Positions 15,232-38,760 of a DNA stretch of 64,000 bases are shown piece after piece. Within the stretch, counting starts at the first letter, position 1. The number at the start of each line of letters is the position of its first letter. The DNA comes from Entomospira culicis (GTDB lineage: Bacteria > Spirochaetota > Spirochaetia > WRBN01), in NCBI RefSeq assembly GCF_028748145.1, contig NZ_CP118181.1, positions 813,433 through 877,432 of the forward strand, given 5' to 3'. Below the pieces are notes generated by a model. It did no database searches. It had not been told where the DNA came from and saw only the letters and a program-made list of their open reading frames with translations. Made by a program: the position numbers and the translations under genes.

Positions 15232-16887
15232 TTAGATTAATGCAAAGCAGAGGCTCTCGTAGGGGCGCAGATGGAGGGTAGAATTTTGTACGACACTATA
15301 TGTATAATTATGCAAAAGCATATCACCAAATAAAAATTCCTCTAATGCCACGGTGGATAAATCTAGAGCAACGTTATTCTTACTAAAATTAGTAATCACT
15401 AAAAGTCGTTGGGGAAAAAGCCTGCGCTCGTACACCATTAATTGAGAATGCTCCATTAAATGCGGAATGATCTCGCCTTCGCTGATGATCGAATATGCTT
15501 TACGCATAGCAATTAACTCTTTATAATGATAGAAAATAGAATTATTATCTTGCAATGCATCTTCCACATTAATGTCTCGATAGGCCTCGATGAGACCTAG
15601 CCACGGTTCTGTGGTGGAAAAGCCGGCGTGGGCATCGCCTCCCGACCAAGGCATTGGGGTGCGACCGTGATCCCGAGACTTCACCGCTAAAATCTTCATT
15701 ACCGCATCATGTACGAGACCTTTCTCACGCAAAATTTGATAATAATTATGCGTTTCAACATCTCTATATTGATGAATATCCATAAAACTCGCGTTAGGTA
15801 AACCAATCTCCTCCCCTTGATAGATAAAGGGGGTACCACGTAGTAAGTACATCGCGTTGGCGAGCATTTTTGCCGAAATAACTCGATAGGCAGGATCACT
15901 GGCGCCAAAACGAGAAACCACCCGCGGTTGATCATGGTTCGACCAAAAGAGCGCCTGCCAACCATCACCTGCCTGTACGCCCAACTGCCAATCAAAGAGG
16001 ATTTTTTTCAGCTCGACCAAAGAAAATTGCTTAACACTCCACTTCTCTCCAGCCTCATAATCGACCTTTAAATGATGAAAATTGAAGATCATACGTAAAC
16101 GATTCTCTAACCTCGCACTATAGCCAACGGCAGCCTCAATCGTGGTAGAAGACATCTCACCCACCGTAACCATCGTGGGGTTTTTCCCGAAACTCAATTT
16201 GTTTAATTCAGTTAAGTAATCATTTACTCGCACACCATCGGTGTAATACTTGCGACCATCTCCATGATTATCGTCAATAAAATCACCCTTGTCGATTAGG
16301 TTAATCACATCAAAGCGAAAACCCATCACTCCCTTATCGATCCAATAATTAATCACCTTAATTAACTCTTGACGAACGGCTTCATTTTTCCAGTTGAGAT
16401 CGGCTTGAGTAACATCGAAAAGGTGGAGATAATGTTTATCTAAATGCGAAACATATTGCCAAGCTGACCCACCAAATTTAGAGAGCCAATTGGTTGGAAT
16501 TTCAGCTCCATCACGAAAGATATAGTATGCTTGCTTCGCTTCATCGCCAGCCAGCGCCGACTGAAACCAAGCATGTTCCGTTGAGGTGTGATTAAAGACC
16601 ATATCCAACATAAATTCGATGCCAAGTGCCTTGCCCTTTGCCAAGAGTTCCTCAAAATCTGCCATCGTTCCAAAGAGCGGATCGATCTGATAATAATCTG
16701 CCACATCATAGCCATTATCTCGTTGTGGAGAAAGAAAAAATGGGGTAATCCAAATCATATCAATTCCCAGCTCTTTTAGATAGTCAAGCTTGGCGGTAAT
16801 TCCCGCCAAGTCACCCACCCCATCGCCATTACTGTCGTAAAAAGAGCGAGGGTAAATTTGATAAATGCTCATTTTGTTAAAATGCAT
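15232..16887 (-). CDS. treC: Alpha,alpha-phosphotrehalase (GH13)
   Basis: Cytoplasmic enzyme that hydrolyses trehalose 6-phosphate to glucose and glucose 6-phosphate. The 551-residue protein shows the phosphotrehalase version of the GH13 core: IYQIYPRSFYDSNGDGVGD at the start, MVFNHTSTEHAWF, FGGSAWQY, nucleophile Asp193 in FRFDVINLI, acid/base Glu244 in TVGEMS, and SNHDQPR near the third carboxylate. The ATG at 16887 is chosen because AAGGA lies 7 bases upstream, leaving 17 bases from the treB stop. It is the second gene of treB-treC; the product enters glycolysis. Oligo-1,6-glucosidase is a less likely alternative given treB. Confidence 0.9.
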   Translation of the reverse strand: MHFNKMSIYQIYPRSFYDSNGDGVGDLAGITAKLDYLKELGIDMIWITPFFLSPQRDNGYDVADYYQIDPLFGTMADFEELLAKGKALGIEFMLDMVFNHTSTEHAWFQSALAGDEAKQAYYIFRDGAEIPTNWLSKFGGSAWQYVSHLDKHYLHLFDVTQADLNWKNEAVRQELIKVINYWIDKGVMGFRFDVINLIDKGDFIDDNHGDGRKYYTDGVRVNDYLTELNKLSFGKNPTMVTVGEMSSTTIEAAVGYSARLENRLRMIFNFHHLKVDYEAGEKWSVKQFSLVELKKILFDWQLGVQAGDGWQALFWSNHDQPRVVSRFGASDPAYRVISAKMLANAMYLLRGTPFIYQGEEIGLPNASFMDIHQYRDVETHNYYQILREKGLVHDAVMKILAVKSRDHGRTPMPWSGGDAHAGFSTTEPWLGLIEAYRDINVEDALQDNNSIFYHYKELIAMRKAYSIISEGEIIPHLMEHSQLMVYERRLFPQRLLVITNFSKNNVALDLSTVALEEFLFGDMLLHNYTYSVVQNSTLHLRPYESLCFALI

Positions 16888-16904
16888 AACATTATCCTTC
16901 TTTA

Positions 16905-18311
16905 TCAATTTTTTACGCGTTTTGACCAGCCTAATGTCAAGATGAGTGGGACAATCACCGCAATGCTCATTGCGATAAGGAAGAGTAACATGAACTTAGG
17001 TTGAATAGAGAGAATTCCCGGAAGCCCGCCGACCCCAATCGAATTTGCCATGACTCCCGTAGCTACCGAGAATAAGCCAGCCAATCCTGAGCCAATCATG
17101 CCCATCAAAAAGGGATAGCCGTACTTGAGGTTGATTCCAAACATTGCTGGTTCAGTTACTCCTAGGTAGGCCGATATGGTGGCAGGGATGGCAACTTGTT
17201 GCTCTTTTTTATCCTGACGGTGTAGCATAATCATCGCTAAAACCGCCGAGCCTTGTGCAATATTAGAGAGCGCGATCATCGGCCAGAGCATCGTTCCCCC
17301 GAATTCAGCCATCAATTGTAAGTCGATCGCGTTGGTCATGTGATGCAAACCAGTAATGACCAGTGGAGCATAGAAGAAGCCAAAAATCAACGCAAAAAGC
17401 CAGCCAAATGCAGATGTCAAGCCACTATACACCACCTGAGAAATCGCCGATCCGATGATCCAACCCATAGGACCAAGCAACGCATGTGCTAAGATAACCG
17501 TTGGTACAAGCGCAAAAAAGGGCACAATGATCATCGAAATTGCCTCGGGCGTAATCTTACGCCAAAAGCGCTCTAAATAGACCAACGCAAACCCCGCCAA
17601 CATCGCCGGAATCACCTGTGCTTGATAGCCAATCATATTCATCTTGGCAAAGCCAAAATCCCAAAAAGGAATCTCCGCCCCACCGGCAACCGCGTAGGCA
17701 TTGAGAAGCTGTGGCGAAGTGAGCGTTAATCCTAAGACGATACCCAAAATTTGCGTACTACCCATCTTCCGGGTAATAGACCACGTGATGCCTACGGGGA
17801 GAAAGTGAAAAATTGCCTCACCAATGAGCCAAAGAAAGGCGTGTACGCCCGACCAAAATTGCGATTTATCCACCAACGTCTGGGTGCCTTCGTCAAAAAA
17901 AGCGATATCGCCAATTACATTCCGAAATCCTAAAATCAATCCACCCGTAATAATTGCAGGGATTAACGGCGAAAAGATCTCGGCAAGGTTCGCCATCAAC
18001 CGTTGAAGCATCGTCATGTTATCCTTGGCTGCCTCTTTCACGCTCTCTTTAGAGCTCTCTTCGATGCCCGCAAGCGCAATGAATGTCTGATAAAAATCGG
18101 CAACCTCATTACCGATAATCACTTGAAACTGTCCCGCCTGCGCAAAGAGTCCCTTAACCATCGTGATCTTTTGAATCTTATCTTTATCTGCCAATGCCAA
18201 ATCTCGCAAAACAAATCGCATCCGTGTTACACAGTGCGTAACCCTCATGATATTTTCTCTACCACCCACCGCATCCAATAATAACTGTGCCTCATCTTGA
18301 TATTGCATCAT
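16905..18311 (-). CDS. treB: Trehalose-specific PTS permease EIIBC
   Basis: Inner-membrane permease that imports trehalose as trehalose 6-phosphate. The N-terminal EIIB domain carries the phospho-acceptor Cys27 in VTHCVTRMRF; the EIIC domain (about 105-465) has around ten hydrophobic segments with TGLHHMTNAIDLQL and GVTEPAMFGINL, both typical of the TreB/sucrose group. The 468-residue size is normal. No EIIA domain is fused, so phosphate must come from a separate EIIA. GGGAGGG precedes the ATG. Promoter at 18353-18381. No trehalose regulator gene is adjacent. Confidence 0.92.
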   Translation of the reverse strand: MMQYQDEAQLLLDAVGGRENIMRVTHCVTRMRFVLRDLALADKDKIQKITMVKGLFAQAGQFQVIIGNEVADFYQTFIALAGIEESSKESVKEAAKDNMTMLQRLMANLAEIFSPLIPAIITGGLILGFRNVIGDIAFFDEGTQTLVDKSQFWSGVHAFLWLIGEAIFHFLPVGITWSITRKMGSTQILGIVLGLTLTSPQLLNAYAVAGGAEIPFWDFGFAKMNMIGYQAQVIPAMLAGFALVYLERFWRKITPEAISMIIVPFFALVPTVILAHALLGPMGWIIGSAISQVVYSGLTSAFGWLFALIFGFFYAPLVITGLHHMTNAIDLQLMAEFGGTMLWPMIALSNIAQGSAVLAMIMLHRQDKKEQQVAIPATISAYLGVTEPAMFGINLKYGYPFLMGMIGSGLAGLFSVATGVMANSIGVGGLPGILSIQPKFMLLFLIAMSIAVIVPLILTLGWSKRVKN

Positions 18312-18406: not shown

Positions 18407-18435
18407 TTGACGTGAAAAGAAATTTTATATATTAT
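18407..18435 (+). promoter_or_regulatory. Promoter of the Rieske oxygenase gene
   Basis: TTGACG (18407-18412), 17-bp spacer, TATTAT (18430-18435). An ATG at 18434 overlaps the -10 and cannot be used; the next in-frame ATG (18443) sits 7 bases past the -10, where transcription should begin. Confidence 0.65.
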
Positions 18436-18442
18436 GTATGGT

Positions 18443-19402
18443 ATGAACATAAATCGATGGTACGCTGTCTTATCAGCAGAAGAAATTAAATATAAAAAAC
18501 CACTCCTTAAACGACGCTTTGGCGAAGAGATTCTATTTTTTAGACAAAAAGATAAAACGATCGTCGCCCTAGACAATAAATGTCCTCACCGTGGAGCAAG
18601 CCTTGCTCATGGAGAACTCACCGAACAGAATGAAATCGCCTGTCCTTTTCACGCCATTCGCTTTAATCAAGAGGGCAAGGCAACTGCCATTCCCGCCAAT
18701 GGATTGTCCGCCGAAGTTCCCAAAAACATGTGCGTTAAATCGTGGCCGGTGCAAGAAGCCCACGGTTTTATCTGGCTATGGTACGGCGAAGCGTTAGAAC
18801 ATTATCCACCCGTACCGTGGTTCGAAAACCTCCCCGATACCATGCCCTACCGTGAGTCTACACATTTGTGGAATTGCCACTATACACGTTGTATAGAGAA
18901 TCAACTAGATTTTGCCCATGTGCCTATTGTCCATAAAAAGACGATTGGACGCGGAAATAAAACCGTCATCGACATGCCTATGCTCGAAAAAAATGAAAGA
19001 GGCTTTCTCACCAAGACCGATTTTCATCAAGATACCGGACAAGTTGTCGATCACAAAAAGCATCCTGCGCACGACTTCTCGCGCTTTCATCTTGAGTTTG
19101 TCTGGCCCAACATCTGGCAAAATTATCTCTACAACAAAGCGCGCGCCGTTCTCGCCTTTAGCCCCATCGACGAACATCACACCCTCATTTACATGCGCTA
19201 CTACCACGAAATTCCCTTATTTGGCTCCATCGTAAGGCACTTTGGACTACAATTCAGCCAAAAGATCCTCCAAGAAGATCACGACGTCGTGATGACCCAA
19301 CGCCCCGACAAAAGCGATTATCATATGGGTGAAATTCTCCTACCGCAAGAGAGCCCCATTATTCTCTATCGTAAAGGCAGGGAAGAGCAACAATTATATT
19401 AA
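18443..19402 (+). CDS. Rieske [2Fe-2S] non-haem iron oxygenase, alpha-subunit type
   Basis: A 319-residue protein with both metal centres of Rieske oxygenases. The 2Fe-2S ligands are Cys47/His49 (CPHRG) and Cys67/His70 (CPFH). The mononuclear iron site is N153-x2-D156-x2-H159-x4-H164 in IENQLDFAHVPIVH, with a probable third carboxylate in LQEDHDVV near 275. Such enzymes use O2 and electrons from a separate reductase to hydroxylate or demethylate aromatic or amine substrates. No reductase or ferredoxin gene is adjacent. The start at 18443 is set by the promoter and the mRNA appears leaderless. Substrate unknown. It stands alone between two sugar loci. Confidence 0.85.
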   Translation: MNINRWYAVLSAEEIKYKKPLLKRRFGEEILFFRQKDKTIVALDNKCPHRGASLAHGELTEQNEIACPFHAIRFNQEGKATAIPANGLSAEVPKNMCVKSWPVQEAHGFIWLWYGEALEHYPPVPWFENLPDTMPYRESTHLWNCHYTRCIENQLDFAHVPIVHKKTIGRGNKTVIDMPMLEKNERGFLTKTDFHQDTGQVVDHKKHPAHDFSRFHLEFVWPNIWQNYLYNKARAVLAFSPIDEHHTLIYMRYYHEIPLFGSIVRHFGLQFSQKILQEDHDVVMTQRPDKSDYHMGEILLPQESPIILYRKGREEQQLY

Positions 19403-19441: not shown

Positions 19442-19513
19442 AAAAACTCCTCACTTTATAACCATAGGCGATACCCCCTGTATACTATCCTTATAGAGAA
19501 TGGAGGAGTTTTT
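19442..19513 (+). repeat. Inverted repeat whose 3' arm covers the mngA ribosome-binding site
   Basis: AAAAACTCCTC (19442-19452) and its exact complement GAGGAGTTTTT (19503-19513), separated by 50 bases; the 3' arm contains the GAGGAG used by mngA. A TATACT -10-like box at 19481-19486 lies between the arms, with no clear -35, as often seen at activated promoters. Transcripts starting there would lack the 5' arm, while read-through RNA from the oxygenase gene would hide the ribosome site. Confidence 0.5.
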
Positions 19514-19516
19514 CCT

Positions 19517-21484
19517 ATGCACATACGCAATATGACCCAAGAGAGCTTAATTCTATTAGAACATGAAGCTTCTACGCGGGCGCAAGTATTAGATCACTTA
19601 GCCGATCAACTAGAAAAAGCAGGCTATATTAGCAATAAGCAACAATATCTTCAGGATGTTTTCACGCGAGAAGAAGAGTCCCCCACCGGCTTTGAGCAAG
19701 GTATTGCCATTCCGCATGGGAGATCTTCTGCTGTAATAAAGAGCGGATTCGCCTTTATGCGCACGAAAAAAGTCATTAAAGATTGGCCTAGCTTAGACGA
19801 AGAGAACCAAGTACAACTCATCTTCTTATTAGCAATTCCTCAAGAAGGAAAAAGCAATGAGCAAATGAAACTCTTGGCAACACTCTCTACGGCATTACTC
19901 AACCAAAATTTCATCGATGATCTTATCCACGGAACGACACCCAAAGAGATTCTTCACGCACTCGATAAAATAGACATCCAAGACAAACACCGAACGCAAT
20001 CATCTGCCACCATATCCCAAAAAAAACGTGTTCTAGCTATTACCGCCTGCGCTACGGGTATCGCACATACATACATGGCTGCCGAGGCGCTCGTTAAAGC
20101 AGGAAAAGCGCTCGATATAGATATACTCGTAGAAAAACAGGGCGCTAATGGCTTAGAAGATAAGCACACCCAAACTCTCATTGCACAGGCAGATGCACTC
20201 ATTATTGCCTGCGACATCGCCCCCAAAGAGATCGAGCGCTTTGTGGGACTTCCCTATATATCCGTAAAGGTGGCGCAACCTCTCAAACATGCTGAAGAGT
20301 TAATCACGCGCGTACTCACCAACCCTGATGGTAGAGTAGAAACTACGGCGATGGAGAATGATACGGATCAAAACAAGAAGCACTCTTTATTAAGCGAGAT
20401 GATGCAAGCCATTATGACCGGTATCTCTTACATGATTCCCGTCATTGTTGCCGCGGGGTTAATGATGGGGTTGGCAAAGCTTACGGCAATGGCTATGGGG
20501 CAAATCGATAATATGGGGCAATTTCTCCAAAGCGAGAACGCCTTTTATCTTTTACTGGGTAATCTTGATCGATTTGGTGGCTTGATTTTTCGCTTTATCT
20601 ATCCTATTTTTGGTGCCTATGCCGCCTATTCTCTTGCCGATCGCCAAGGTATTGTACCGGGATTTATCGGAGGAAGCTTTGCTGCAGGACTCCACTTTAG
20701 CCTATGGGGTATTAGTGGCGTCGCCTCAGGCTTCCTCGGAGCAATGTTCTTAGGTTTACTTGCTGGATATGTTGCACGCTTTTTGAATCAACATATTAAA
20801 TTAAGCAAAAATTTAGTCGCCATGAAGCCGATGTTTCTCATTCCTGGCATCTCGGTGTTGATCATCTTTATTGCGAACTTCTACTTTGTCGACCCGGTAT
20901 TTGGTGCCCTCAACAGCTGGATGGAGAAATCCATTCGTGCTTTTGATACAGGCAGTGAATTAATGCTGGTAGCAATCATTGCCGCAGCCACCGCATTTGA
21001 TTTAGGTGGACCTATCAATAAAGCCGCCGGAGCTATTGCCATTGGTTTAGCCGCCGATGCGATCTTTCCACTTACTGGGCGGGTATTAGCTATCGTAATT
21101 CCCCCCATCGGACTTGGACTCTCCACTGTTATCGATAAATATCTCGTAGGAAGACATGTCTACAGCGAAGAGCTACGCATCGTGGGTTCCTCATCCATTA
21201 TCCTAGGATTTATCGCCATAAGTGAAGGAGCAATTCCCTTTATGTTGAAAAATCCCCTCATTACCATACCACTCAATATTCTTGGCGCCATAATCGGGGC
21301 TACTACCGCCGTAGCTTTGGGCGCAGTACAATGGAACCCCTTACCGGCAATCTGGGGATGGCCTTTGGTAGAAAACTTGTGGGCCTATCTGGTTGGCTTA
21401 CTAGCAGGCGTCTTATTTATCGCCATTAGTAATGTGTTTGTTCGATTTTATCTTCTCAAAAAATTCAAAAAGAATCAACTCTAA
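19517..21484 (+). CDS. mngA: PTS permease EIIABC, MngA-like (2-O-alpha-mannosyl-D-glycerate type)
   Basis: A 655-residue fructose-family permease with EIIA (1-150, phospho-His67 in IPHGR), EIIB (170-265, phospho-Cys178 in ITACATGIAHTYMAAE) and EIIC (295-650, about nine hydrophobic segments). The A-B-C order and length match E. coli MngA, which imports and 6-phosphorylates mannosylglycerate. Fructose permeases look similar, so the assignment rests mainly on the mngB-like gene 27 bases downstream. GGAGGAG lies 8 bases before the ATG and is part of an inverted repeat. First gene of a four-gene operon with a glycerate-glucoside phosphorylase and an RpiR regulator. Confidence 0.8.
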   Translation: MHIRNMTQESLILLEHEASTRAQVLDHLADQLEKAGYISNKQQYLQDVFTREEESPTGFEQGIAIPHGRSSAVIKSGFAFMRTKKVIKDWPSLDEENQVQLIFLLAIPQEGKSNEQMKLLATLSTALLNQNFIDDLIHGTTPKEILHALDKIDIQDKHRTQSSATISQKKRVLAITACATGIAHTYMAAEALVKAGKALDIDILVEKQGANGLEDKHTQTLIAQADALIIACDIAPKEIERFVGLPYISVKVAQPLKHAEELITRVLTNPDGRVETTAMENDTDQNKKHSLLSEMMQAIMTGISYMIPVIVAAGLMMGLAKLTAMAMGQIDNMGQFLQSENAFYLLLGNLDRFGGLIFRFIYPIFGAYAAYSLADRQGIVPGFIGGSFAAGLHFSLWGISGVASGFLGAMFLGLLAGYVARFLNQHIKLSKNLVAMKPMFLIPGISVLIIFIANFYFVDPVFGALNSWMEKSIRAFDTGSELMLVAIIAAATAFDLGGPINKAAGAIAIGLAADAIFPLTGRVLAIVIPPIGLGLSTVIDKYLVGRHVYSEELRIVGSSSIILGFIAISEGAIPFMLKNPLITIPLNILGAIIGATTAVALGAVQWNPLPAIWGWPLVENLWAYLVGLLAGVLFIAISNVFVRFYLLKKFKKNQL

Positions 21485-21511
21485 AATTTATTACAAGGAG
21501 GATCTATTTAC

Positions 21512-24133
21512 ATGAAAAGACCTGTCCACGTTGTTGCACACTCGCATTGGGATAGAGAGTGGTACTTTACGCTAGAGGACTCGAACCTTATTTTGTATCG
21601 AAATTTACCTTATCTGTTAGATCTGCTAGAAAGCGATCCAAAATTTAGTTCTTATACATTTGATGGACAAAGTTCGGTTATAGAAGAATTTTTATACCTC
21701 TACCCCCAAGAGCGATCCCGTATAGAAGCTCTCGTGAAAGCCAAGCGCCTTTTTATCGGCCCTTGGTACACCCAGTGCGACACGCTCCTTGTTCACACCG
21801 AGTCGCTCATTCGAAACCTGCTACACGGCAAAAGAATCGCGAACCATCTAGGGCACAGCATGAATATTGGTTATCTCCCTGATGTCTTTGGTCAACATGC
21901 TTACTTACCTGCCATATTCCTAGAAATGGAAATAGATTGGGCAATTTTGCAACGCGGAATTCGTACGGCAGATTTAGCAAAAAATCTCCATTTCTATTGG
22001 CAATCTCCCGATGCGCAACGCATCCCCACGAACAATCTCTTTTTAGGCTATGGGGCTGGTAAATTCTTACAAAGTACCCCCTCCTACTATCAAGAAACGC
22101 TTCGCCCTATGCTTCAAAAACTCCAAGAGATGAACCAAGATACGCCAGCACTCCTGCTTCCTGCCGGTGGCGATCAAGTTTTGGCAAGAGCTCACTTTCC
22201 CCAAACCATTGAAAAACTCAACAGCATGCAAGAAGAGTATACCTTCATCTTGAGCGATTACGAAACATTCATGCAGGAGAGTTGGCGTAATAATCCGATC
22301 ACGAATATTATTCATGGCGAACTTACAGCATCCCAACGCTCGCGCATTCATACAACCATTAAGTCGCAACGCTATGACATTAAATATAAGAGCTATCAAG
22401 TGGAACAACTTCTTCTACACCAACTAGAACCACTAGGGGTCATCGCCAGCACCATTCAGATCGACTATCCCAAAACACTCATCGATCAAATTTGGCGAAA
22501 ACTCTTTGACGCACAATCTCACGATAGCTTAGGTGGCTGTAATAGCGATGAGACAAATGATCAAATCATACATCGACTCGATCAGGCCAAGCGTCTCTGC
22601 GACGGCGCGATTAATCTCCTGAAAAAAGAGATAAGCCATGCAATATCGCCACCAAATCAACAGATGTTTCTTCTCTTCTTTACACACGCTAGTGCAAGTG
22701 CACAACATCACAAACTCACCCTCTTTAGCGAACATCGTCATATTCATATCAAAGATCTTCAGCAACACCCACTATCCTTTGAAACCATCCAGGTAAAAGA
22801 GATCAGTGGCGGTAGCAAAATCGTTAGCACCGCACAAGGCGATCAACAAGTACATCTTCCGCCCTACTACCGCCATACATTACTACTCAAACTCGATTAC
22901 CCATCCCAGATTGGCTATACGAGCTATCTCATCGAACAGAATACTCAACCAAGAGCCACTCCACTAGCTAACAATTCCAAACCAATCATAGAAAATACTT
23001 ACTATCGTATTGAACTACAAAATCATTCGCTCTCTCTATTTGATAAGAAAAATCATCAACACCTAAGCAATTTTATCCACTTTCAAGATGAAGAGGATAC
23101 TGGGGACTCTTACGACTTCGCCCCAGCTAACTCACCAAAGAGCACCCTTTCTCAGGATTATCATTATCAACAGTCAATCCACTTAAAAGAGATGCAATCA
23201 CTCACTCTCTGCCATACCATTCAAACATTCGACAATCAATCCATTCAAGCTAGCACCACGCTCACCCTCTATGCAGATAATCCCCTCCTAGAAATTACCC
23301 ACACCATCGACAATACAGCATCTAACCATCGTCTACGTGCCATTATTCATAGTAATCTCACCGCCACTGCCAGCTACAGCGATCAAGGCTTTAGCTTTTT
23401 AGAACGTCCTCTCACCCAAATCGATCAAGAAAATTGGCAAGCTCTAGGCTACGTAGAAGCACCACAAGCCATCTATGGCTTAGAAAATATGCTCTATGTT
23501 CAACAAGAAAAGAACATGTGTAGTATCTTTACACAAGGCATCAAAGAGTACTCCCTCTTAGAGGATAAGCAAAGCATCGCTCTTACGCTATTTCGCAGTG
23601 TAGGATTACTCGGCAAAGACGATTTATCCATCCGCCCTGGACGGGCCAGTGGCATCAATAATACTGTCGTATACACCCCCCATGCGCAACTGCACCAACG
23701 TATGGAATTCCACTATGCCGTGAGTTGGCAACACCATAGTATTCGCGATCTGTATACTAACCTCCATCGCTACCGACAGCCTCTTACGAGTTATCAAATA
23801 CAAACGCTCAATTCACTGAAAGAACGTATCGATCGCTTTGAAATTCCGCTAAAAGAGAGCAATCAGCCCAACAAGAGAACGCTATTAACTTTACACAATA
23901 ACGCTATCATCATGAATCTCTGTAAACCTAGCGAAGAGAATCCGCAAGACATCGTCATCCGACTCTTTAACCCAACAGCACAAACGCAAATCACCTCAAT
24001 AGATCATTCGCTAGGTAAAATCTATCTATGCAATCTCTTAGAAAAAGAGTTAAGAGAGATCGAACAGATAGAAATTTCACCCTTTAGCTTTTGTACAATC
24101 AAAATCATTCCTAAGGAGAGTCATCATGACTAA
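21512..24133 (+). CDS. mngB: Alpha-mannosidase GH38, MngB-like
   Basis: An 873-residue cytoplasmic zinc glycosidase, nearly the same size as E. coli MngB (about 877), which cleaves 6-phosphomannosylglycerate to mannose 6-phosphate and glycerate. The N-terminal catalytic domain shows VVAHSHWDREWY (8-18, zinc and substrate region), GPWYTQCDTLLV near 92-103 with the expected nucleophile Asp, and GYLPDVFGQ; FDAQSHDSLGGCNSDETND marks the second zinc-binding region near 335. AAGGAGG precedes the ATG. It overlaps the next gene by 8 bases, indicating translational coupling. Confidence 0.85.
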   Translation: MKRPVHVVAHSHWDREWYFTLEDSNLILYRNLPYLLDLLESDPKFSSYTFDGQSSVIEEFLYLYPQERSRIEALVKAKRLFIGPWYTQCDTLLVHTESLIRNLLHGKRIANHLGHSMNIGYLPDVFGQHAYLPAIFLEMEIDWAILQRGIRTADLAKNLHFYWQSPDAQRIPTNNLFLGYGAGKFLQSTPSYYQETLRPMLQKLQEMNQDTPALLLPAGGDQVLARAHFPQTIEKLNSMQEEYTFILSDYETFMQESWRNNPITNIIHGELTASQRSRIHTTIKSQRYDIKYKSYQVEQLLLHQLEPLGVIASTIQIDYPKTLIDQIWRKLFDAQSHDSLGGCNSDETNDQIIHRLDQAKRLCDGAINLLKKEISHAISPPNQQMFLLFFTHASASAQHHKLTLFSEHRHIHIKDLQQHPLSFETIQVKEISGGSKIVSTAQGDQQVHLPPYYRHTLLLKLDYPSQIGYTSYLIEQNTQPRATPLANNSKPIIENTYYRIELQNHSLSLFDKKNHQHLSNFIHFQDEEDTGDSYDFAPANSPKSTLSQDYHYQQSIHLKEMQSLTLCHTIQTFDNQSIQASTTLTLYADNPLLEITHTIDNTASNHRLRAIIHSNLTATASYSDQGFSFLERPLTQIDQENWQALGYVEAPQAIYGLENMLYVQQEKNMCSIFTQGIKEYSLLEDKQSIALTLFRSVGLLGKDDLSIRPGRASGINNTVVYTPHAQLHQRMEFHYAVSWQHHSIRDLYTNLHRYRQPLTSYQIQTLNSLKERIDRFEIPLKESNQPNKRTLLTLHNNAIIMNLCKPSEENPQDIVIRLFNPTAQTQITSIDHSLGKIYLCNLLEKELREIEQIEISPFSFCTIKIIPKESHHD

Positions 24134-25808
24134 ATCGACCCTGATACATGCATTAATGGAGAAACTATGCTTCATTTATCCACAAAAAACCGCCAGTAAT
24201 CTGCAATCAATGTTAGAAGAACATCTTGCCCAATGGGACAACCTAACCATACATAAAAGTGAAGCCATCAGCGAAAAAAATATTTATCTTATTGCTTATG
24301 CTGATAGTATCTATACAAAGGATGAATCCCCGTTTCTTACCTTAAATCGGTTTTTAGAAGACCAGACAGCTAACACGATATCAGACATTCACTTACTACC
24401 CTTCTTCCCCTTTACCAGTGATGACGGGTTCTCTGTCGTAGACTATCTAGCTATTAATCCTGCGTATGGTAACTGGCACGATCTGCAAACCTTAGGGAAG
24501 CGTTATCGACTCATGTTTGATTTTGTCGTTAACCACATCTCTCAATCAAGCGATTGGCTCAAAGGTTATCTTGCCGAAGAGCATCCTTATCGCCACTATT
24601 TCATCGAGAAAGAGGCAGGTTTCGATTATAGTTGCGTTGTACGACCACGTACCTCGCCCCTCTTTCATGCCTTTAACACCAACAATGGATCGAAAGATTT
24701 ATGGACAACCTTCAGTCAAGATCAAGTAGATCTCAACTATCACTATCCGCCCCTCCTCATGCATATGAGCGATATTCTCCTTACCTATGTCGAACGTGGG
24801 GCAAGCTCCATTCGCTTAGATGCGATTGGCTTTTTATGGCGAGAAAGTGGAACCTCTTCTCTTCATCTCCCACAAACCCATGCCATTGTACAATTTTGGC
24901 GTTTATTACTAACGCATTATGCACCTAATGTTCAAATTATTACCGAGACAAATGTCCCTCATCAAGAGAATATCTCTTACTTTGGAGAAAACAATGAAGC
25001 ACATATGGTCTATCAATTTGCGCTACCACCCTTGGTCTTACACACGTTTACCACTCACAATGCCACCAAATTCAATACTTGGGCAAAAGACATTCAAGCG
25101 ATTTCTTCTGAGGCAACCTACTTCAACTTTTTATCTAGCCATGACGGCATTGGAATGCGCCCCGTAGAAGGAATTCTCTCTACGCAGGAGATCGAAAAGC
25201 TCGTTAAAAAAACCCTAAACAATGGGGGAAAAGTCTCCTATAAAACCAATAGCGATGGTTCGCAATCAGTTTATGAGTTGAACATAAACTATCATGATGC
25301 GCTGATTAATGATCAAGACGAGGACTCTTTACATGTAGCAAAAATTCTCAATGCAAATGCCTTACTCCTTTCGATAGTGGGCGTTCCGGCGATTTACTAC
25401 CATAGTCTCCTTGGTTCGCGCAATGACTATCAGGGCTTTCTGGATACACAAATTAACCGTCGCATCAATCGCCAAAAACTCGAGTATAACCAACTGATCG
25501 CCTCGCTCCAAGATGATACACGAAAAAAAGCTATTTTTGAGGGAATCCTTAAACTTATCACCATAAGAAAAAAACATAGCGCCTTTTCGCCCTACGCACA
25601 ACAAGAGATTCTTCAGGAGGAAAATCCCGCCATCATCCACCTCATTCGCATCAACACAACCAGCGGTGAACGCATCCATTTCCTAAGCAACGTCTCCAAT
25701 ATATCCCAGTTTATAAACGAAATACCACAAGGAATCAATCTCCTCGATCCCAAAGTAAAGATCACCAATCAACTACCTGCCTATGCCTTTCTCTGGATAA
25801 AAGAGTAA
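24126..25808 (+). CDS. GH13_18 phosphorylase, probably glucosylglycerate phosphorylase
   Basis: A 560-residue enzyme of the sucrose-phosphorylase subfamily. The catalytic nucleophile is Asp232 (SIRLDAIGFLW) and acid/base Glu274 (IITETNVPHQ). Sections such as HLPQTHAIV, ENISYFGENNEAHMVYQF, LSSHDGIGMRPVEGIL and NGGKVSYK are of the YcjM/glucosylglycerate phosphorylase kind rather than true sucrose phosphorylase, by my recollection of those families. It would convert 2-O-alpha-glucosylglycerate and phosphate to glucose 1-phosphate and glycerate. AAGGAG precedes the ATG, inside the mngB end. Sucrose or glucosylglycerol phosphorylase are alternatives. Confidence 0.75.
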   Translation: MTKSTLIHALMEKLCFIYPQKTASNLQSMLEEHLAQWDNLTIHKSEAISEKNIYLIAYADSIYTKDESPFLTLNRFLEDQTANTISDIHLLPFFPFTSDDGFSVVDYLAINPAYGNWHDLQTLGKRYRLMFDFVVNHISQSSDWLKGYLAEEHPYRHYFIEKEAGFDYSCVVRPRTSPLFHAFNTNNGSKDLWTTFSQDQVDLNYHYPPLLMHMSDILLTYVERGASSIRLDAIGFLWRESGTSSLHLPQTHAIVQFWRLLLTHYAPNVQIITETNVPHQENISYFGENNEAHMVYQFALPPLVLHTFTTHNATKFNTWAKDIQAISSEATYFNFLSSHDGIGMRPVEGILSTQEIEKLVKKTLNNGGKVSYKTNSDGSQSVYELNINYHDALINDQDEDSLHVAKILNANALLLSIVGVPAIYYHSLLGSRNDYQGFLDTQINRRINRQKLEYNQLIASLQDDTRKKAIFEGILKLITIRKKHSAFSPYAQQEILQEENPAIIHLIRINTTSGERIHFLSNVSNISQFINEIPQGINLLDPKVKITNQLPAYAFLWIKE

Positions 25809-25822
25809 AGGATAAGCGAAAA

Positions 25823-26632
25823 GTGTCGATAGGTAAGATAATGTCTGAGGATCTTCTACATCTACTTTTAGAGCGCCTAGAGCAAGAAAAACGCCTGCAA
25901 TTAAGTTTCAGCGAAGAGGAAATTTTGCGGGCGTTTTTCACCCATCTTCCCACCTCCGTCCACTGGACAATGAAAGAACTCACCAACCACGCAACGGTCT
26001 CCATCGCCTCCATCTCAAGACTCATCACCAAACTCAATCTCCATAGCTACAAAGAGATGCAACTTGCATTAGAGCTCTTTTATCAAGAGGTTAAAGAGAG
26101 TGTGCTACCTAAATCTACGCACCGAAATCCCATAACAGAAGAGATTACACGTATTCAAAGTATTACCAAAACCAACCTCGATCACTTCGTTAAAGATCTC
26201 AAAAATGCTCCCTTAACAACCTTTCTAACCATGCTTAAAGAGAGCCAGTTTACCATCATTTTATCGGTGGGCTTCTCACAATTTGCCTCCGACTATCTAG
26301 CCTATTCTCTACAAATTCAAGGGGTCAACATTCAATCGGTTAGCATGAACCTTCCTAGCGAAATTTATTGGACACTCCTCAAAAAGTGCGATCTCATCAT
26401 CGTTATTTCGCGCTCAGCGACCACCCCTAGCATCAAAAAAAAGCTAGAAGAGGCGCAGTCCTTTAAGATTCCCTTAGTCGTTATCACAGGCAACCCCAAA
26501 GGAACCTACGCACAAGAAGCGACACTCGTACTGCCTATCTACGACCGTAATCCTTATCGCGACCAAAATTCCTATAGCGCTTTTCAGCTAAAACTCTTCT
26601 ATCTTGCCGATATTATCCAAAATTTATGCTAA
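25823..26632 (+). CDS. RpiR-family transcription regulator (HTH + SIS)
   Basis: A 269-residue DNA-binding regulator: N-terminal HTH_6 domain (about 20-90, with MKELTNHATVSIASISRLITKL) and a C-terminal SIS sugar-phosphate domain (about 130-260, with IILSVGFSQFASDYLAY and IVISRSATTPSIKKKL). RpiR proteins sense phosphosugars, so it probably controls the mngA-mngB-phosphorylase operon of which it is the last gene; E. coli uses a GntR regulator (MngR) instead. The start is either GTG at 25823 after AAAGGA or ATG at 25841 after AGG. Its stop abuts the convergent lipoprotein stop with no spacer. Confidence 0.85.
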   Translation: MSIGKIMSEDLLHLLLERLEQEKRLQLSFSEEEILRAFFTHLPTSVHWTMKELTNHATVSIASISRLITKLNLHSYKEMQLALELFYQEVKESVLPKSTHRNPITEEITRIQSITKTNLDHFVKDLKNAPLTTFLTMLKESQFTIILSVGFSQFASDYLAYSLQIQGVNIQSVSMNLPSEIYWTLLKKCDLIIVISRSATTPSIKKKLEEAQSFKIPLVVITGNPKGTYAQEATLVLPIYDRNPYRDQNSYSAFQLKLFYLADIIQNLC

Positions 26633-29600
26633 TCAACGTGCTTTACGGAGAATAAAGGAATCAAACATTGAGGCTTCGCTAATCGGTACATCGCTATAAT
26701 AAGCGCGCAAGGTGATCGCATCTGGCGTTACCTCCACCAGTGTTACCGATGGCCGATTATTCTGCTCGGTGTAGGCGTGATAGGGGTAGTCGGTGGGGTA
26801 GAGCGGATTAAAGCCCAACGAGGCAGCATTCCCTGTGTGATGGAAAAATTGTCCGCGTCGCTTGGTAAATTCGGCAAAGAGATTCTTTCCATTGGCAATA
26901 TATCCCTCCCAAATCGGTTTTGCGCCAACCGTACCGTCCTCCAGCGTACCCCCGTTGGCGTTGTAGCCTCCTTCCAACATCAAGGTGCGACCATAGGCAT
27001 GATCGTGTCCGTTAAAGACCACATCAATATCTAGCACCGAGAGGGCAGGTGATAAATCCGCACGTAGCGCTCGTAACACAGGGTGAATGGCATAACGGGT
27101 GGTAGCATAAGGCAGATAGTGAAAGTTAAGAATCTTCCATAGTGGTTCTTCGCCATTATTTTCGCGCTTGTATTTCTCGATGCTATCTTGCATAAACTGA
27201 ATATGCTTAGACGTATCGGCAGGCGTACGATCAGTGGTGTCTAACGACATGAAGAGCACCTTGCCATAGGTAAAGGCGTAATTTCCCCCCGTGGGCGAAC
27301 CGCCAATCGGGGTGAGAGTTCCAGGTAGATTAAAATGTTCTAAATAGATCGCGTGCTTATCGTGGCTACCCGAGGTAACACTTATCGGTATCTTAGTCAT
27401 CAGCGGATGGGTAAAAAAGAGGTTATACTGATTTTGATGATCAGGGTGCTCAATTTGATCACCAGAACTCAACAGAAAACTTGCCTCAGGCCATTTAGTT
27501 AAGATATGATCCAGCGTGCGATGCCAAGCAATCGCTACAGGTTCGACCATACCATTCTTGCCCAGCTGCGCGTCTGTAACCGAGACAAACGCAAAGCTAT
27601 CTAACATCGCGTCGGTTTTAAAGGAGTAAATATCACTAACCAACGCTTCAGACTTACCGTTATCATGCGCTATCTGATAGTAGTAGGTCGCCCCCGTTTC
27701 GAGATTGGTCAATGTAACATGGTTCGTAAAAAATCCATGTAAACGCTCCATCGGTTTACGCGTTGCAGGCACGCTCATCGGCGCTTGCCCCTCCTGCCAA
27801 TAGGTGAGAACGCCTGCGCTAGGGCTACTGCTAGACCAAGCGAACCCACGCTGGGAAGCATCAACACCCAGATGGATATTTAGGTTGAGCATCACCGTTG
27901 GCTCCAGCGCGTAAGGAACATTAAAGAGCGTAAAATTCTTCACATCGAGATAAAGAATATCATCATTGGGGAGCGCCTGTAGCTCAAGGGTTAAACTATT
28001 CTCGCCATTTTTAAGCAAATCACTGGGCAAGTTGATAAAACGCGTCGTCTGGCTCATCTCATTGAATGGGCGGCTAACCCCATGCTGTACCGTATTTTGA
28101 TATTCCGTAAGATCTACACCATTAAGATAGATACGGATAGCGCCACGGTGGTGTAAATCAACGTAGGCGGACTGGTAACGTTCAGCATCGTTGAGGGAAA
28201 AATCATAACGCAAGAGATGCCGTGTGTACTCACCATTAAACGTGGTCTGCACACTCTGCCATAGGCGCGCGTTGCCTTGCTTTGCCGACCCAAATGCACC
28301 ATGCCCAACTTGCCCTTCATGCTCACGGATAGCAGGGGTATAGTGCCACAAGGTCGAACGATCCACCATCGCCTTGCCATATGGAGGCATATAAAAGCTC
28401 GCATGCTTGAGCGCAACAGTTATATCATCATGCGCCTCGATACCAAAGAGTGTAGTTGGGTCGCTATCTCTCTCGTTAATTTCTGTGCGTGCTTTAAAAT
28501 AGATATCGCTAGCAGGGGCGATAATCGCATGCGTAGTGATCGATACGAGGTGCTTGCCCTTCGCCGATGCGCCCTTCGGGAGCAATGCAGAAGCCTGCAT
28601 AAGCCCCATCTCGCTGGCTATGCCGTTATCTTCCGTAATAGCAAAATCGACTTGCGTGCTGGGGCTAGTGTAGAAGAGCGTTATGGGTAGAGGATTATCT
28701 TTTATCGCCGAAAGTTTCACCCGCCCATCATCGGTTGCCGACATATAATAAGTGATACGTGGATTGATAGGATTAATCGTGGAGCTGATAAAGTCGTTGG
28801 CGATAGCACCCACAAAGTAGACATGTGCGTAATCGGGCGTAAGGACAAAGCTGCCATCGCCAAACGCACCCACCTGCGCTGGACTCTTGCCTTCGTACAT
28901 CACGAGGGATAGTGCAGGATTGTCGCTACGCAACTGCATGCGATAATTCCCGTTGGTGCGGTTAATCGATCGCTGAACAACCAAAGGTGCACGCTTTTTC
29001 TTGGAAGCATCATACAACATGGGCAAATTATCTTCATTGTAATTAAAGAGATCGACCGTATAAAGATACGCGCCATCGCCCAAATCGACAGGTGCAGGCA
29101 TGGCAGGCATCGAGTAACGCGCAAGTTTTGGCGAACGTACCGCTGTATCCCCCGCAAGATCGCTATCTTCCATAAACATCGTTGCCCAGGTATGCGATCG
29201 TCCTTCGTTATAAAAACCATCGCCCATGTCATGACGCGCGGCAAAGCTAACCTCGCCCCAAGCTGGATCGTTAGAACGCAAATGAATTTCATACATGCCT
29301 TCGCCACTCACGCCATCAGGGGTAAGAAGCGCGCCTAAGGGCACATCGGCAATCGCGTTGCCAAAGGGAATTTCGACATCGTCTATTTCATTAGAATAGA
29401 AAAAATTAATCCCCGTTCCTGTCGCCTTAACCGCGACAAAAGCAAGCGTTCCCGTCTCCGCGTTAGGGTAGAGATAATGCGTGGCAGGCATCGCCTTTTG
29501 TAAATAGACATGATGGTACTGGGGAGTGATAACAAAGGTTTTCGCCTCTTTAAATGCGCCAATCGAGGTAATTTGCTCATCCACCACACGAAGCGTCTGC

Positions 29601-29815
29601 TTATCGCCCGATGCCGTTACTAAAAAGCGATAAAAGTGTGGATCACTCCGATCGACATCATAGATTAGCGCTTCACCGTCAAGCCGTTCTAATTTAGTGG
29701 CATCACTCGCGCCAAAAATATCAACCGTTGCCAGATAACTTTTACTCGTAGATTTACTACAAGAAACAACACTCAACACCAATAAAAGACTCCCCAACAT
29801 ACGCATCCATCGCAT
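26633..29815 (-). CDS. Large lipoprotein with C-terminal calcineurin-like (purple-acid-phosphatase-type) phosphoesterase domain
   Basis: A 1060-residue exported lipoprotein; the signal ends in lipobox SVVSC (Cys19). About 600 residues of beta-rich sequence follow, in repeats such as DKQTLRVV...GAFKEAKTFVITPQYHHVYL and SLVMYEGK...GAFGDGSFVLTPDYAHVYFV. After a fibronectin-like stretch (about 640-730) comes a metallophosphoesterase domain with SVTDAQLG, SSGDQIEH, SGSHDKH, NFHYLPY and NGHDHAYGR. The metal-ligand motif GNH is GSH here and D-x-H is D-x-Q, so activity may be changed. Strong promoter at 29842-29870; monocistronic. Probably a surface or periplasmic phosphatase; substrate unknown. Confidence 0.75.
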   Translation of the reverse strand: MRWMRMLGSLLLVLSVVSCSKSTSKSYLATVDIFGASDATKLERLDGEALIYDVDRSDPHFYRFLVTASGDKQTLRVVDEQITSIGAFKEAKTFVITPQYHHVYLQKAMPATHYLYPNAETGTLAFVAVKATGTGINFFYSNEIDDVEIPFGNAIADVPLGALLTPDGVSGEGMYEIHLRSNDPAWGEVSFAARHDMGDGFYNEGRSHTWATMFMEDSDLAGDTAVRSPKLARYSMPAMPAPVDLGDGAYLYTVDLFNYNEDNLPMLYDASKKKRAPLVVQRSINRTNGNYRMQLRSDNPALSLVMYEGKSPAQVGAFGDGSFVLTPDYAHVYFVGAIANDFISSTINPINPRITYYMSATDDGRVKLSAIKDNPLPITLFYTSPSTQVDFAITEDNGIASEMGLMQASALLPKGASAKGKHLVSITTHAIIAPASDIYFKARTEINERDSDPTTLFGIEAHDDITVALKHASFYMPPYGKAMVDRSTLWHYTPAIREHEGQVGHGAFGSAKQGNARLWQSVQTTFNGEYTRHLLRYDFSLNDAERYQSAYVDLHHRGAIRIYLNGVDLTEYQNTVQHGVSRPFNEMSQTTRFINLPSDLLKNGENSLTLELQALPNDDILYLDVKNFTLFNVPYALEPTVMLNLNIHLGVDASQRGFAWSSSSPSAGVLTYWQEGQAPMSVPATRKPMERLHGFFTNHVTLTNLETGATYYYQIAHDNGKSEALVSDIYSFKTDAMLDSFAFVSVTDAQLGKNGMVEPVAIAWHRTLDHILTKWPEASFLLSSGDQIEHPDHQNQYNLFFTHPLMTKIPISVTSGSHDKHAIYLEHFNLPGTLTPIGGSPTGGNYAFTYGKVLFMSLDTTDRTPADTSKHIQFMQDSIEKYKRENNGEEPLWKILNFHYLPYATTRYAIHPVLRALRADLSPALSVLDIDVVFNGHDHAYGRTLMLEGGYNANGGTLEDGTVGAKPIWEGYIANGKNLFAEFTKRRGQFFHHTGNAASLGFNPLYPTDYPYHAYTEQNNRPSVTLVEVTPDAITLRAYYSDVPISEASMFDSFILRKAR

Positions 29816-29955: not shown

Positions 29956-30450
29956 ATGGAACAACAAGCATATCTAGCTTGCGGATGCTTTTGGGGCTCG
30001 CAGGCGCTCTTCGATCAACTAGCAGGAGTCATGCAAACCGAAGTCGGCTACATGGGCGACAACGAAGAACAAGCTCACTATGATATTGTAAAATATGGCA
30101 CCACCGCCCACAAAGAGACCCTCAAGGTTACTTATAATGCAGACCAAATTTCGTATGAAGCTATCCTCAAGTATTTCTTTGAAATTCATGACTTTAGCCA
30201 AGAAGATGGACAAGGTCCTGACATCGGCGAGCAGTATAAAAGTGTCATCTTCTACCAAAATGAGACCGAACACGCTACCGCCCAAGCTATCATCAATCTC
30301 CTAAAAAAGCATAAATACCACGTCGCCACCCAGCTCTCACCCGCTATGCCTTTTTATCGCGCCGAGGAATACCATCAAAAGTACTACGCCAAACACCACG
30401 CCTCTCCTTATTGCCACATTCATCGAAATATTTTTGATAAATTATCCTAA
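29956..30450 (+). CDS. msrA: Peptide methionine-S-sulfoxide reductase MsrA
   Basis: A 164-residue cytoplasmic repair enzyme that reduces methionine-S-sulfoxide in proteins. The catalytic Cys11 lies in GCFWG, Glu near 56 and the TTAHKE stretch follow, then FFEIHDFSQEDGQGPDIGEQY and the C-terminal AEEYHQKYY typical of MsrA. A second cysteine, Cys9, two residues before the catalytic one is unusual, and the recycling cysteine may be Cys138 in SPYCHIH. Its mRNA appears leaderless. 27 bases separate it from the citrate carrier, so read-through is possible; a functional link to citrate is not evident. Confidence 0.92.
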   Translation: MEQQAYLACGCFWGSQALFDQLAGVMQTEVGYMGDNEEQAHYDIVKYGTTAHKETLKVTYNADQISYEAILKYFFEIHDFSQEDGQGPDIGEQYKSVIFYQNETEHATAQAIINLLKKHKYHVATQLSPAMPFYRAEEYHQKYYAKHHASPYCHIHRNIFDKLS

Positions 30451-30477
30451 ATAAAATTTTAGCAAAAAGAGGAAGCT

Positions 30478-31842
30478 ATGGAAAAAAAACCATTCTCAAT
30501 TTATGGCATGCCCGCGCCATACTTTTTAGTCATCGCAGCCATCGTCTTAGGTAGTGCGTATAGTGGAATCCTACCCATGGGATTAATTGGCGGTACGGCA
30601 TTCTTGTTAGTTGTTGGTATTATTTTGGGCGAAATTGGCGAGCGTATCCCCATCTGGAACACCTGGATTGGTGGCGGAGCAGTTTTAGCTTTTCTAGGAT
30701 CAGCGATTCTTCTTTATTACAACCTCATGCCAGCAGGGAGTAAAGAAATTGCCGAACACTATCTCGATGAAGTTGATTTTCTCAATTTTTTTATTGCGGT
30801 TTTGATTACTGGTAGTATTTTAGCCGTTAATCGCTCCATCCTCCTCAAAGCTATTGCTGGCTATATCCCCACAATTCTCTTAGGTCTTGTTGGCGCGGTT
30901 ATCTTGGGTTCGCTCATAGGTATGCTCTTTGGATTTAGCCCCAGCGAGATCGTCGCACAATATGTCTTACCAATTATGGGCGGTGGCAATGGTGCGGGCG
31001 CGATTCCCTTGAGTCAAATTTACGCCGAAATTCAAGGCGACAAAGCCATTAAAGCCGGTACAATCTTAGCCAACTCACCAGAGTTACTTTCATTTACCCA
31101 AGCCAAACAGTCTGAGTATTATAGTCAAGCGATCGCAATCCTTACTATCGCCAATATTTTTGCGATTATTTTTGGGGCGCTGCTGCATCAAGTTGGTAAT
31201 AAATTCCCCAGCCTAACGGGTAACGGCGAACTGCTCAAATCCAATCAAACCGAAACCGCTAGCACAAAAAAAGACGAAAAGAGTATTCCCACGCTTGCGC
31301 AACTGGGAGCAGGCTTACTGCTTGCACTCTCCTTTTATATTTTAGGATTACTCTTTAGCCGAAAAATTCTACCCGATATCATGGGTTTCAAAATCCATAA
31401 CCTAGCCTACACCGTCCTCTTTGTTGCCCTTGCCAACGGCTTTGGTCTCATTAATGTCGAATTACGCAATGCCACCAAACGTCTACAAGACTTTGTTTCT
31501 GGTCGTTTCCTTTTACTCTTGATGGTTGCCGTAGGATTGGCAGACACCGATATTGGGCACCTGCTCTCCGTACTTAATGTAGGAACACTCGTTATTTCAC
31601 TCTTCGTGGTAACTGGCGCGGTATTAGGCGCAGGACTAGGCGGAATGATCTTTAAATTCTACTTTGTGGAGAGTGCAATTTCGGCAGGATTATGTATGGC
31701 AAACCGTGGCGGTTCTGGCGACCTAGCAGTATTAGGGGCGGCAAAACGCATGTCATTAATGAGTTTTGCGCAAATTTCTAGCCGTTTAGGGGGTGGCATC
31801 GTACTGATTCTCGCCTCTATCTTTATGAATTTACAATCCTAG
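30478..31842 (+). CDS. citS: 2-hydroxycarboxylate transporter, CitS-type citrate:Na+ symporter
   Basis: A 454-residue inner-membrane carrier of the 2HCT family with about 11 hydrophobic segments. It has both signature re-entrant loops: GGGNGAGAIPLS near 165-176 and NRGGSGDLAVLGAA near 407-420. Family members import citrate with Na+ or exchange citrate/malate for lactate. The adjacent citrate lyase genes make citrate the likely substrate. GAGG precedes the ATG. It heads a citS-citD-citE-citF unit that ends at the terminator at 34605-34631. Confidence 0.9.
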   Translation: MEKKPFSIYGMPAPYFLVIAAIVLGSAYSGILPMGLIGGTAFLLVVGIILGEIGERIPIWNTWIGGGAVLAFLGSAILLYYNLMPAGSKEIAEHYLDEVDFLNFFIAVLITGSILAVNRSILLKAIAGYIPTILLGLVGAVILGSLIGMLFGFSPSEIVAQYVLPIMGGGNGAGAIPLSQIYAEIQGDKAIKAGTILANSPELLSFTQAKQSEYYSQAIAILTIANIFAIIFGALLHQVGNKFPSLTGNGELLKSNQTETASTKKDEKSIPTLAQLGAGLLLALSFYILGLLFSRKILPDIMGFKIHNLAYTVLFVALANGFGLINVELRNATKRLQDFVSGRFLLLLMVAVGLADTDIGHLLSVLNVGTLVISLFVVTGAVLGAGLGGMIFKFYFVESAISAGLCMANRGGSGDLAVLGAAKRMSLMSFAQISSRLGGGIVLILASIFMNLQS

Positions 31843-31852
31843 GAGCGCAAAC

Positions 31853-32140
31853 ATGCAACAACTTGGACAAGCTGGTTTTTCCGATATCAACGAAAATAAA
31901 AAGGCTAGTGATATTTATATCGAAGTGGAACTCACCAACATTGGAGGCATTCAGCTCACGCTAGAAGCCCAATTTGCTACGCTCTTTGGTAGACACATTA
32001 GGCAGGCGATTTTGGAGCAACTAAGCGCTATGCAAGTAGAACATGCGATGGTCAAAGCGCAGGATTTTGGCGCCTTAGACTTTATGATTCGGGCACGAGT
32101 CAAGAGTGCCGTAGACCAAGCAAGAGGAGTTATCTCATGA
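31853..32140 (+). CDS. citD: Citrate lyase acyl carrier protein (gamma subunit)
   Basis: A 95-residue acyl carrier protein that holds the phosphoribosyl-dephospho-CoA prosthetic group of citrate lyase. IEVELTNIGGIQLTLEAQ and the C-terminal GALDFMIRARVKSAV fit CitD. The prosthetic-group site is unusual: other CitD proteins have ESSD, with the first Ser modified, while here the matching place reads KASD after an extra Asn/Lys-rich stretch; an alternative candidate is Ser10 in AGFSDI. GGAG lies 6 bases before the ATG. Four bases overlap with citE. Confidence 0.85.
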   Translation: MQQLGQAGFSDINENKKASDIYIEVELTNIGGIQLTLEAQFATLFGRHIRQAILEQLSAMQVEHAMVKAQDFGALDFMIRARVKSAVDQARGVIS

Positions 32141-34594: not shown

Positions 34595-34604
34595 TCCAAA
34601 TAAA

Positions 34605-34631
34605 GAGGCTCGCCTTTGAGCCTCCTTTTTT
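34605..34631 (+). terminator. Terminator of the citrate operon
   Basis: Perfect 7-bp stem GAGGCTC/GAGCCTC (34605-34611, 34618-34624), 6-base loop, then CTTTTTT. The opposite strand has a T-rich tail too, so it may also stop the minus-strand operon ending at 34637. Confidence 0.85.
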
Positions 34632-34636
34632 CCTCT

Positions 34637-35941: not shown

Positions 35942-35987
35942 CACCTTCTCCTTGATAAATATCAAAATAAAATAACCATTTAAATAT

Positions 35988-36548: not shown

Positions 36549-36560
36549 TTTGTCCTCCTT

Positions 36561-38702: not shown

Positions 38703-38760
38703 CACTATACTCCTTTGTGATAAGTAAAAATTTCTCCCCACCCTTTCTTATTCACGCGAT

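Follow-up and report, generated by a model that had tools for sequence, protein, structure and literature searches.

A conserved operon predicted to catabolise mannosylglucosylglycerate in the spirochaete Entomospira culicis and in other bacteria

We describe in Entomospira culicis, a spirochaete of the mosquito larval midgut, an operon that probably serves to break down mannosylglucosylglycerate (MGG) or a mannosyl-glucosylglycerate very similar to it. With somewhat more reserve, we also favour a broader view, according to which the operon represents an undescribed, horizontally spread pathway of MGG catabolism (PTS, GH38, glucosylglycerate phosphorylase (GGaP), usually glycerate kinase, and RpiR) in Bacillota, Gammaproteobacteria and Spirochaetota. 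This pathway would apparently have been assembled at least twice, MGG would be a commoner nutrient than thought, and the lmo2733-2736 genes of Listeria monocytogenes would gain a function.

Results

Gene content and surroundings of the operon

The window, meaning the whole stretch of 64,000 nucleotides that was analysed, covers positions 813433-877432 of a 1,639,587-base contig. The genome comprises 1,769,585 bases in four contigs and has a completeness score of 96%. Reading of the open reading frames places four genes on the + strand at 19517-26632 (Table 1), with a gap of 27 bp between the PTS and GH38 genes, an overlap of 8 bp between GH38 and GH13_18, and a gap of 14 bp between GH13_18 and RpiR. 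Genes, strands and spacings are exactly those of the preliminary description, which had seen an MngA-like PTS, an MngB-like GH38, a GH13_18 enzyme and an RpiR regulator in one packed operon. An Rfam scan of the window found nothing.

Table 1. Features of the operon, in window coordinates
Feature	Position	Strand	Details
PTS enzyme IIABC, MngA-like	19517-21484	+	655 aa; IIA 7-151, IIB 174-264, IIC 301-589
GH38 alpha-mannosidase, MngB-like	21512-24133	+	873 aa
GH13_18, putative glucosylglycerate phosphorylase (GGaP)	24126-25808	+	560 aa; TETN 273-276, loop A Glu384
RpiR-family regulator, HTH + SIS	25823-26632	+	269 aa, GTG start; last in operon
Operon leader, 11-bp inverted repeat	19442..19514	+	AAAAACTCCTC 19442-19452 / GAGGAGTTTTT 19503-19513; from sequence only

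Several neighbours deserve mention in their own right. Just upstream, on the same strand, lies a gene for a Rieske [2Fe-2S] oxygenase with a vanillate demethylase-type C-terminal domain (18434-19402, +), an unexpected enzyme in a small spirochaete genome. Divergent from it is a trehalose PTS IIBC and phosphotrehalase operon of the TreB-TreC type (15232-18311, -), which fits life in an insect gut. On the other side, the stop codon of the RpiR gene abuts that of a gene for a 1060-aa likely lipoprotein (26633-29815, -) with a purple acid phosphatase N-domain, a metallophosphoesterase domain and no NCBIfam match. Further on are a citrate fermentation operon, in which a 2-hydroxycarboxylate transporter is followed by citrate lyase gamma-, beta- and alpha-type genes (30478-34594, +), and a tandem pair of GH3 glycosidases adjoining a LacI regulator (36561-40914, -). 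On the second contig, weak glycosyltransferase-type matches line up in the region 30000-39000. An in-frame stop interrupts several of them, and they are perhaps what is left of a surface-sugar cluster on the large plasmid.

The GH13_18 phosphorylase

The best NCBIfam model for the GH13 protein is sucrose phosphorylase, with 204 bits and under its cut-off of 334. The protein is 42% identical to E. coli YcjM, a characterised glucosylglycerate phosphorylase. Two signatures mark GGaPs, those of E. coli and Spirochaeta thermophila among them: (T/S)ETN at beta-strand 5 and, in loop A, a Glu (PMC7178133). Both signatures are present in the window protein (Table 1) and intact in nearly all proteins of the related gene sets, or cassettes, found in other genomes; loop A of Listeria goaensis reads Gln. 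A tree of 50 rows sets YcjM and the other GGaP-type sequences apart, at 100/99, from 7znp (named sucrose phosphorylase) and 7qqi, two partial, long-branched PDB sequences. Tree and comparison side the protein with YcjM, apart from sucrose phosphorylase, in favour of the preliminary description, and homology supports its assignment as a putative GGaP well. Within the tree it lies inside the clade of Bacillota cassette GGaPs (100/100) and apart from most of its spirochaete counterparts, a position that speaks for horizontal acquisition.

The PTS and GH38 proteins

MngA phosphorylates mannosylglycerate on entry, and MngB releases mannose 6-phosphate. In favour of the preliminary description, the window PTS is not a fructose permease by its best NCBIfam model: the mannosylglycerate PTS model gives 458 bits, under the MngA equivalog cut-off of 763, and fructose IIBC gives 232. 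Identity is 35% to E. coli MngA and 47-57% to the IIABC proteins of 14 other cassettes, and in the PTS tree the cassette permeases form their own clade, split from the MngA clade.

The GH38 protein matches a single NCBIfam model, mannosylglycerate hydrolase, with 627 bits and under the cut-off of 1138. It is 29% identical to E. coli MngB over nearly its whole length and 41-44% identical to the GH38s of Bacillota cassettes. All four Pfam domains are present, including the N-terminal, middle and C-terminal ones. Residues H12, D14, D124 and H337, which from general knowledge of GH38 we take to be the Zn/nucleophile positions, are kept in the window enzyme and invariant in the 49 aligned sequences, while Q147 (Trp in MngB), Y131, F185 and G220 are specific to cassettes and are first candidates for residues of the aglycone subsites. 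In the GH38 tree the cassette enzymes fall outside the MngB clade. As both proteins score well under the equivalog cut-offs, they are relatives of MngA and MngB rather than proven equivalents, and homology does not fix their exact substrates.

A fructose PTS accompanied by an unrelated sucrose phosphorylase is ruled out by the family scores, the GGaP signatures and the tree. Separately, Enterococcus raffinosus (L134) has a PTS near the cassette type (44%) beside a different GH38 (29%) and without a GGaP; this PTS may import a related mannoside.

Distribution of the gene set

The GH38 alignment was scanned against 84,980 species genomes, and the best 80 loci were considered. At 11 of them the GH38 is 37-43% identical to that of the window, and all 11 have a GGaP-type GH13_18 (44-53% identity) and a PTS (38-57%) nearby. 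The GGaP and PTS pair occurs at none of the other 69, whose GH38s are 33% identical or less. The 11 hosts are Rossellomorea, Fictibacillus, Pontibacillus, Alkalibacterium, Listeria farberi, Listeria goaensis, Enterococcus thailandicus, Paenibacillus, Citrobacter amalonaticus, Vibrio maerlii and a Streptococcaceae MAG. Plasmid records, searched in addition, yielded further copies in L. monocytogenes, Photobacterium and Vibrio.

In 399 Bacilli genomes, scanned separately, four GH38s reached at least 1229 bits, with a clear gap to the next at 751. One of the four belongs to the Listeria farberi genome used as centre; out of sample, the whole set was found with 3/3 new high scorers, and GGaP with 0/17 lower-group controls. 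We regard both tests as strong, although some of the compared genomes are close kin (for example G789 and Fictibacillus L068). Recurrence in 17 other records, together with the two co-segregation tests, rules out a chance neighbourhood. The three-gene set noticed in the window is conserved in other genomes, usually with a glycerate kinase.

Among 369 Gammaproteobacteria scanned, the Citrobacter centre genome alone scored, so the cassette is patchy. It was not seen in E. coli: no genome matched the Citrobacter DNA along the greater part of its length, and the matches listed were to ycjM alone. We also reject the set as a trait of spirochaetes in general. Of 395 genomes of the host's class many have GGaP-like genes, yet no full-length GH38 among them exceeds 29% identity, and six other spirochaete GGaP neighbourhoods have no such PTS or GH38. 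A GH13 match in L127 was also rejected as a GGaP, being an amylase-like fragment (29%, residues 85-234).

The Vibrio cassettes contain other GH38 and PTS lineages, the PTS consisting of IIBC and a separate IIA on its own branch. Their GH38 groups with other GH38s, and a topology that unites every cassette GH38 in one clade is rejected (p-AU 0.002, from a quick tree with long branches). We hold with moderate confidence that they are a second assembly of the same functions.

Glycerate kinase, regulator and other accessory genes

A type I glycerate kinase lies in or adjoins the cassette in 12/17 other copies; in the Streptococcaceae MAG it is the last gene of an adjoining mannosylglycerate operon. 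Alkalibacterium, Citrobacter and Paenibacillus have none locally and one elsewhere in the genome. Neither common glycerate kinase family was found in the E. culicis genome by searches that found both in control genomes, and glycerate would thus be excreted or handled by an unrecognised enzyme. The same genome has two EI-family and two ManA-type genes. In none of five carrier genomes, that of E. culicis being one, did a GpgS exceed the cut-off, which makes imported glucosylglycerate more likely in E. culicis than home-made.

The RpiR protein scores 28.2 bits for the RpiR-type HTH (cut-off 28.3) and has a SIS domain; no resemblance to E. coli MngR was found. RpiR genes are present with all 17 other copies. 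The gene is usually divergent from the PTS in the Bacillota and is the last of the operon in E. culicis. In 11/13 Bacillota copies a palindrome that resembles GTACAATTGTAC, with at most two mismatches, separates RpiR from PTS; it is a candidate operator, absent upstream of the E. culicis operon. The AAAAACTCCTC/GAGGAGTTTTT inverted repeat found in the E. culicis leader is a candidate operator or leader structure, or may be due to chance; its second arm holds a purine-rich stretch right before the PTS start codon.

Two cassettes have nearby a member of a 570-580 aa family (L072:10672-12390, L073:13947-15692) with no Pfam match in either. It is faintly mannose-6-phosphate isomerase-like (37 bits, L072 only), has a look-alike by eye near a spirochaete GGaP (L204:7015-8751), and may be a sugar-phosphate isomerase that is still uncharacterised. 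In Alkalibacterium, a gene for a GH65-type phosphorylase or hydrolase comes after the cassette (L070:12604-14901).

Discussion

The three-part structure of the osmolyte MGG, alpha-Man-(1,2)-alpha-Glc-(1,2)-glycerate, is cited in PMC3694870, which calls the compound rare and knew it from few organisms only. By analogy with MngA, the PTS would import MGG and phosphorylate its terminal mannose at C6. By analogy with MngB, GH38 would then hydrolyse the mannosidic bond to yield mannose 6-phosphate and glucosylglycerate. GGaP needs a free terminal glucosyl group, and hence the mannose capping the glucose must go first; the predicted phosphorylase would then convert glucosylglycerate to glucose 1-phosphate and D-glycerate. 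In most copies the co-encoded glycerate kinase would channel glycerate into glycolysis; in E. culicis glycerate might leave the cell or be processed by an enzyme that was not recognised. The RpiR regulator would control the operon. The three predicted activities would match the structure of MGG bond by bond. The placement of GGaP and the conservation of the set support this reading, which the preliminary description had put forward; we infer the substrate, the phosphorylation site, the linkage and the regulation. Its weak points are the lack of a common glycerate kinase in E. culicis, the rarity of MGG, and the scores of PTS and GH38 under the equivalog cut-offs.

The tandem of PTS IIABC and GH38 is shared with E. 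coli mngR-mngA-mngB and with the RpiR-MngA-MngB-glycerate kinase operons of Bacilli, and phosphorylation on entry, release of mannose 6-phosphate and glycerate as end product are expected in both kinds of operon. The form found in Bacilli also has RpiR and glycerate kinase in common with the cassettes: its operons follow an RpiR-PTS-GH38 frame, and among the operons read four include a glycerate kinase and none a GGaP. Unlike the mannosylglycerate operons, the cassette adds GGaP, has its PTS and GH38 in separate clades, lacks a GntR-type MngR, and is predicted to use a substrate one glucosyl unit longer. The cassette is a mannosylglycerate (MngA-MngB) frame plus one enzyme for the extra glucosyl unit on glycerate.

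Like the GGaPs of E. coli (YcjM), Meiothermus silvanus and Spirochaeta thermophila (EC 2.4.1.352), the window enzyme is a GH13_18 protein of about 560 aa with TETN and the loop-A Glu. Known GGaPs have an ABC transporter (YcjNOP) or glucosylglycerate synthesis genes as partners, whereas the cassette GGaP has a PTS and GH38. Indeed, E. coli ycjM and the spirochaete GGaPs at L204 and L207 adjoin ABC transporters, while cassette GGaPs adjoin a PTS and thus need no ABC transporter. Phosphorylation by a PTS on entry, with a GH13_18 phosphorylase completing the cut, is known from the sucrose 6F-phosphate phosphorylase pathway (PMC7178133). There, however, the phosphorylase cuts the phosphorylated sugar directly; here GH38 should first remove the phosphorylated mannose.

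The kinship of PTS and GH38 with MngA and MngB, and the existence in Bacilli of mannosylglycerate operons with glycerate kinase, could also suggest that the operon serves two uses. PTS and GH38 would consume mannosylglycerate, GGaP would separately consume glucosylglycerate that is home-made or otherwise imported, and the shared glycerate would be the reason for their linkage. We consider this unlikely. Four genomes hold canonical MngA-MngB besides the cassette, namely C. amalonaticus (88% and 82% identity to E. coli MngA and MngB), V. maerlii (L089), the Streptococcaceae MAG (L121) and a Bacilli genome (G638, L185), which indicates that the cassette is not simply for mannosylglycerate. Moreover, in the loci read GGaP never partners canonical MngA-MngB, no second transporter was recognised inside the cassettes, and the five carrier genomes, that of E. 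culicis among them, gave no GpgS over the cut-off.

It is quite improbable, in our view, that the substrate is an alpha-mannoside of another glucoside, with a shifted GGaP acceptor and an aglycone other than glycerate. The E. culicis genome without a recognised glycerate kinase would agree with this, as would the mere 29-35% identity of GH38 and PTS to characterised enzymes; against it stand the acceptor signatures, intact in the window GGaP and, apart from the Gln of L. goaensis, in nearly all cassette proteins, and the glycerate kinase co-encoded in 12 of the 17 other copies. A module for making an osmolyte, in which PTS and GH38 supply glycerate from mannosylglycerate and GGaP runs in reverse to make glucosylglycerate as a compatible solute, seems to us very improbable indeed. 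Phosphorylases are reversible, E. culicis has no recognised glycerate kinase, and the Listeria genes are tied to the sigma-B stress regulon (PMC5641562). Nevertheless, the glycerate kinase of most copies would drain the acceptor. Besides, phosphate is high and glucose 1-phosphate low in cells, which favours phosphorolytic breakdown.

Catabolism of MGG therefore remains our preferred reading, and it bears on genes that are already in the literature. In L. monocytogenes, lmo2733-2736 are annotated as fructose PTS, sugar hydrolase, sucrose phosphorylase and hypothetical (PMC2996996), and have been linked to sigma-B (PMC5641562). Deletion of lmo2734 had a small, non-significant effect in mice (PMC3091722). 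Their identity with the L. monocytogenes cassette genes of L147 rests on matching annotation and neighbours, and in the literature on these genes we found no assigned substrate. Among 5.39 million open papers, subscription papers being mostly outside the search, three name MGG, none of them together with a phosphorylase. We found there no route of MGG breakdown, no assay of an enzyme of the set, and no paper joining mannosylglycerate, PTS and glycerate kinase as a pathway.

If our reading is true, these genes offer a way to degrade MGG, and an orphan PTS operon present in several genera, with Listeria monocytogenes among its hosts, gains a substrate. It would also help to explain the puzzling presence of GGaP genes in organisms not thought to accumulate glucosylglycerate (PMC7178133). 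The recurrence of the set would suggest that producers of MGG feed more neighbours than expected.
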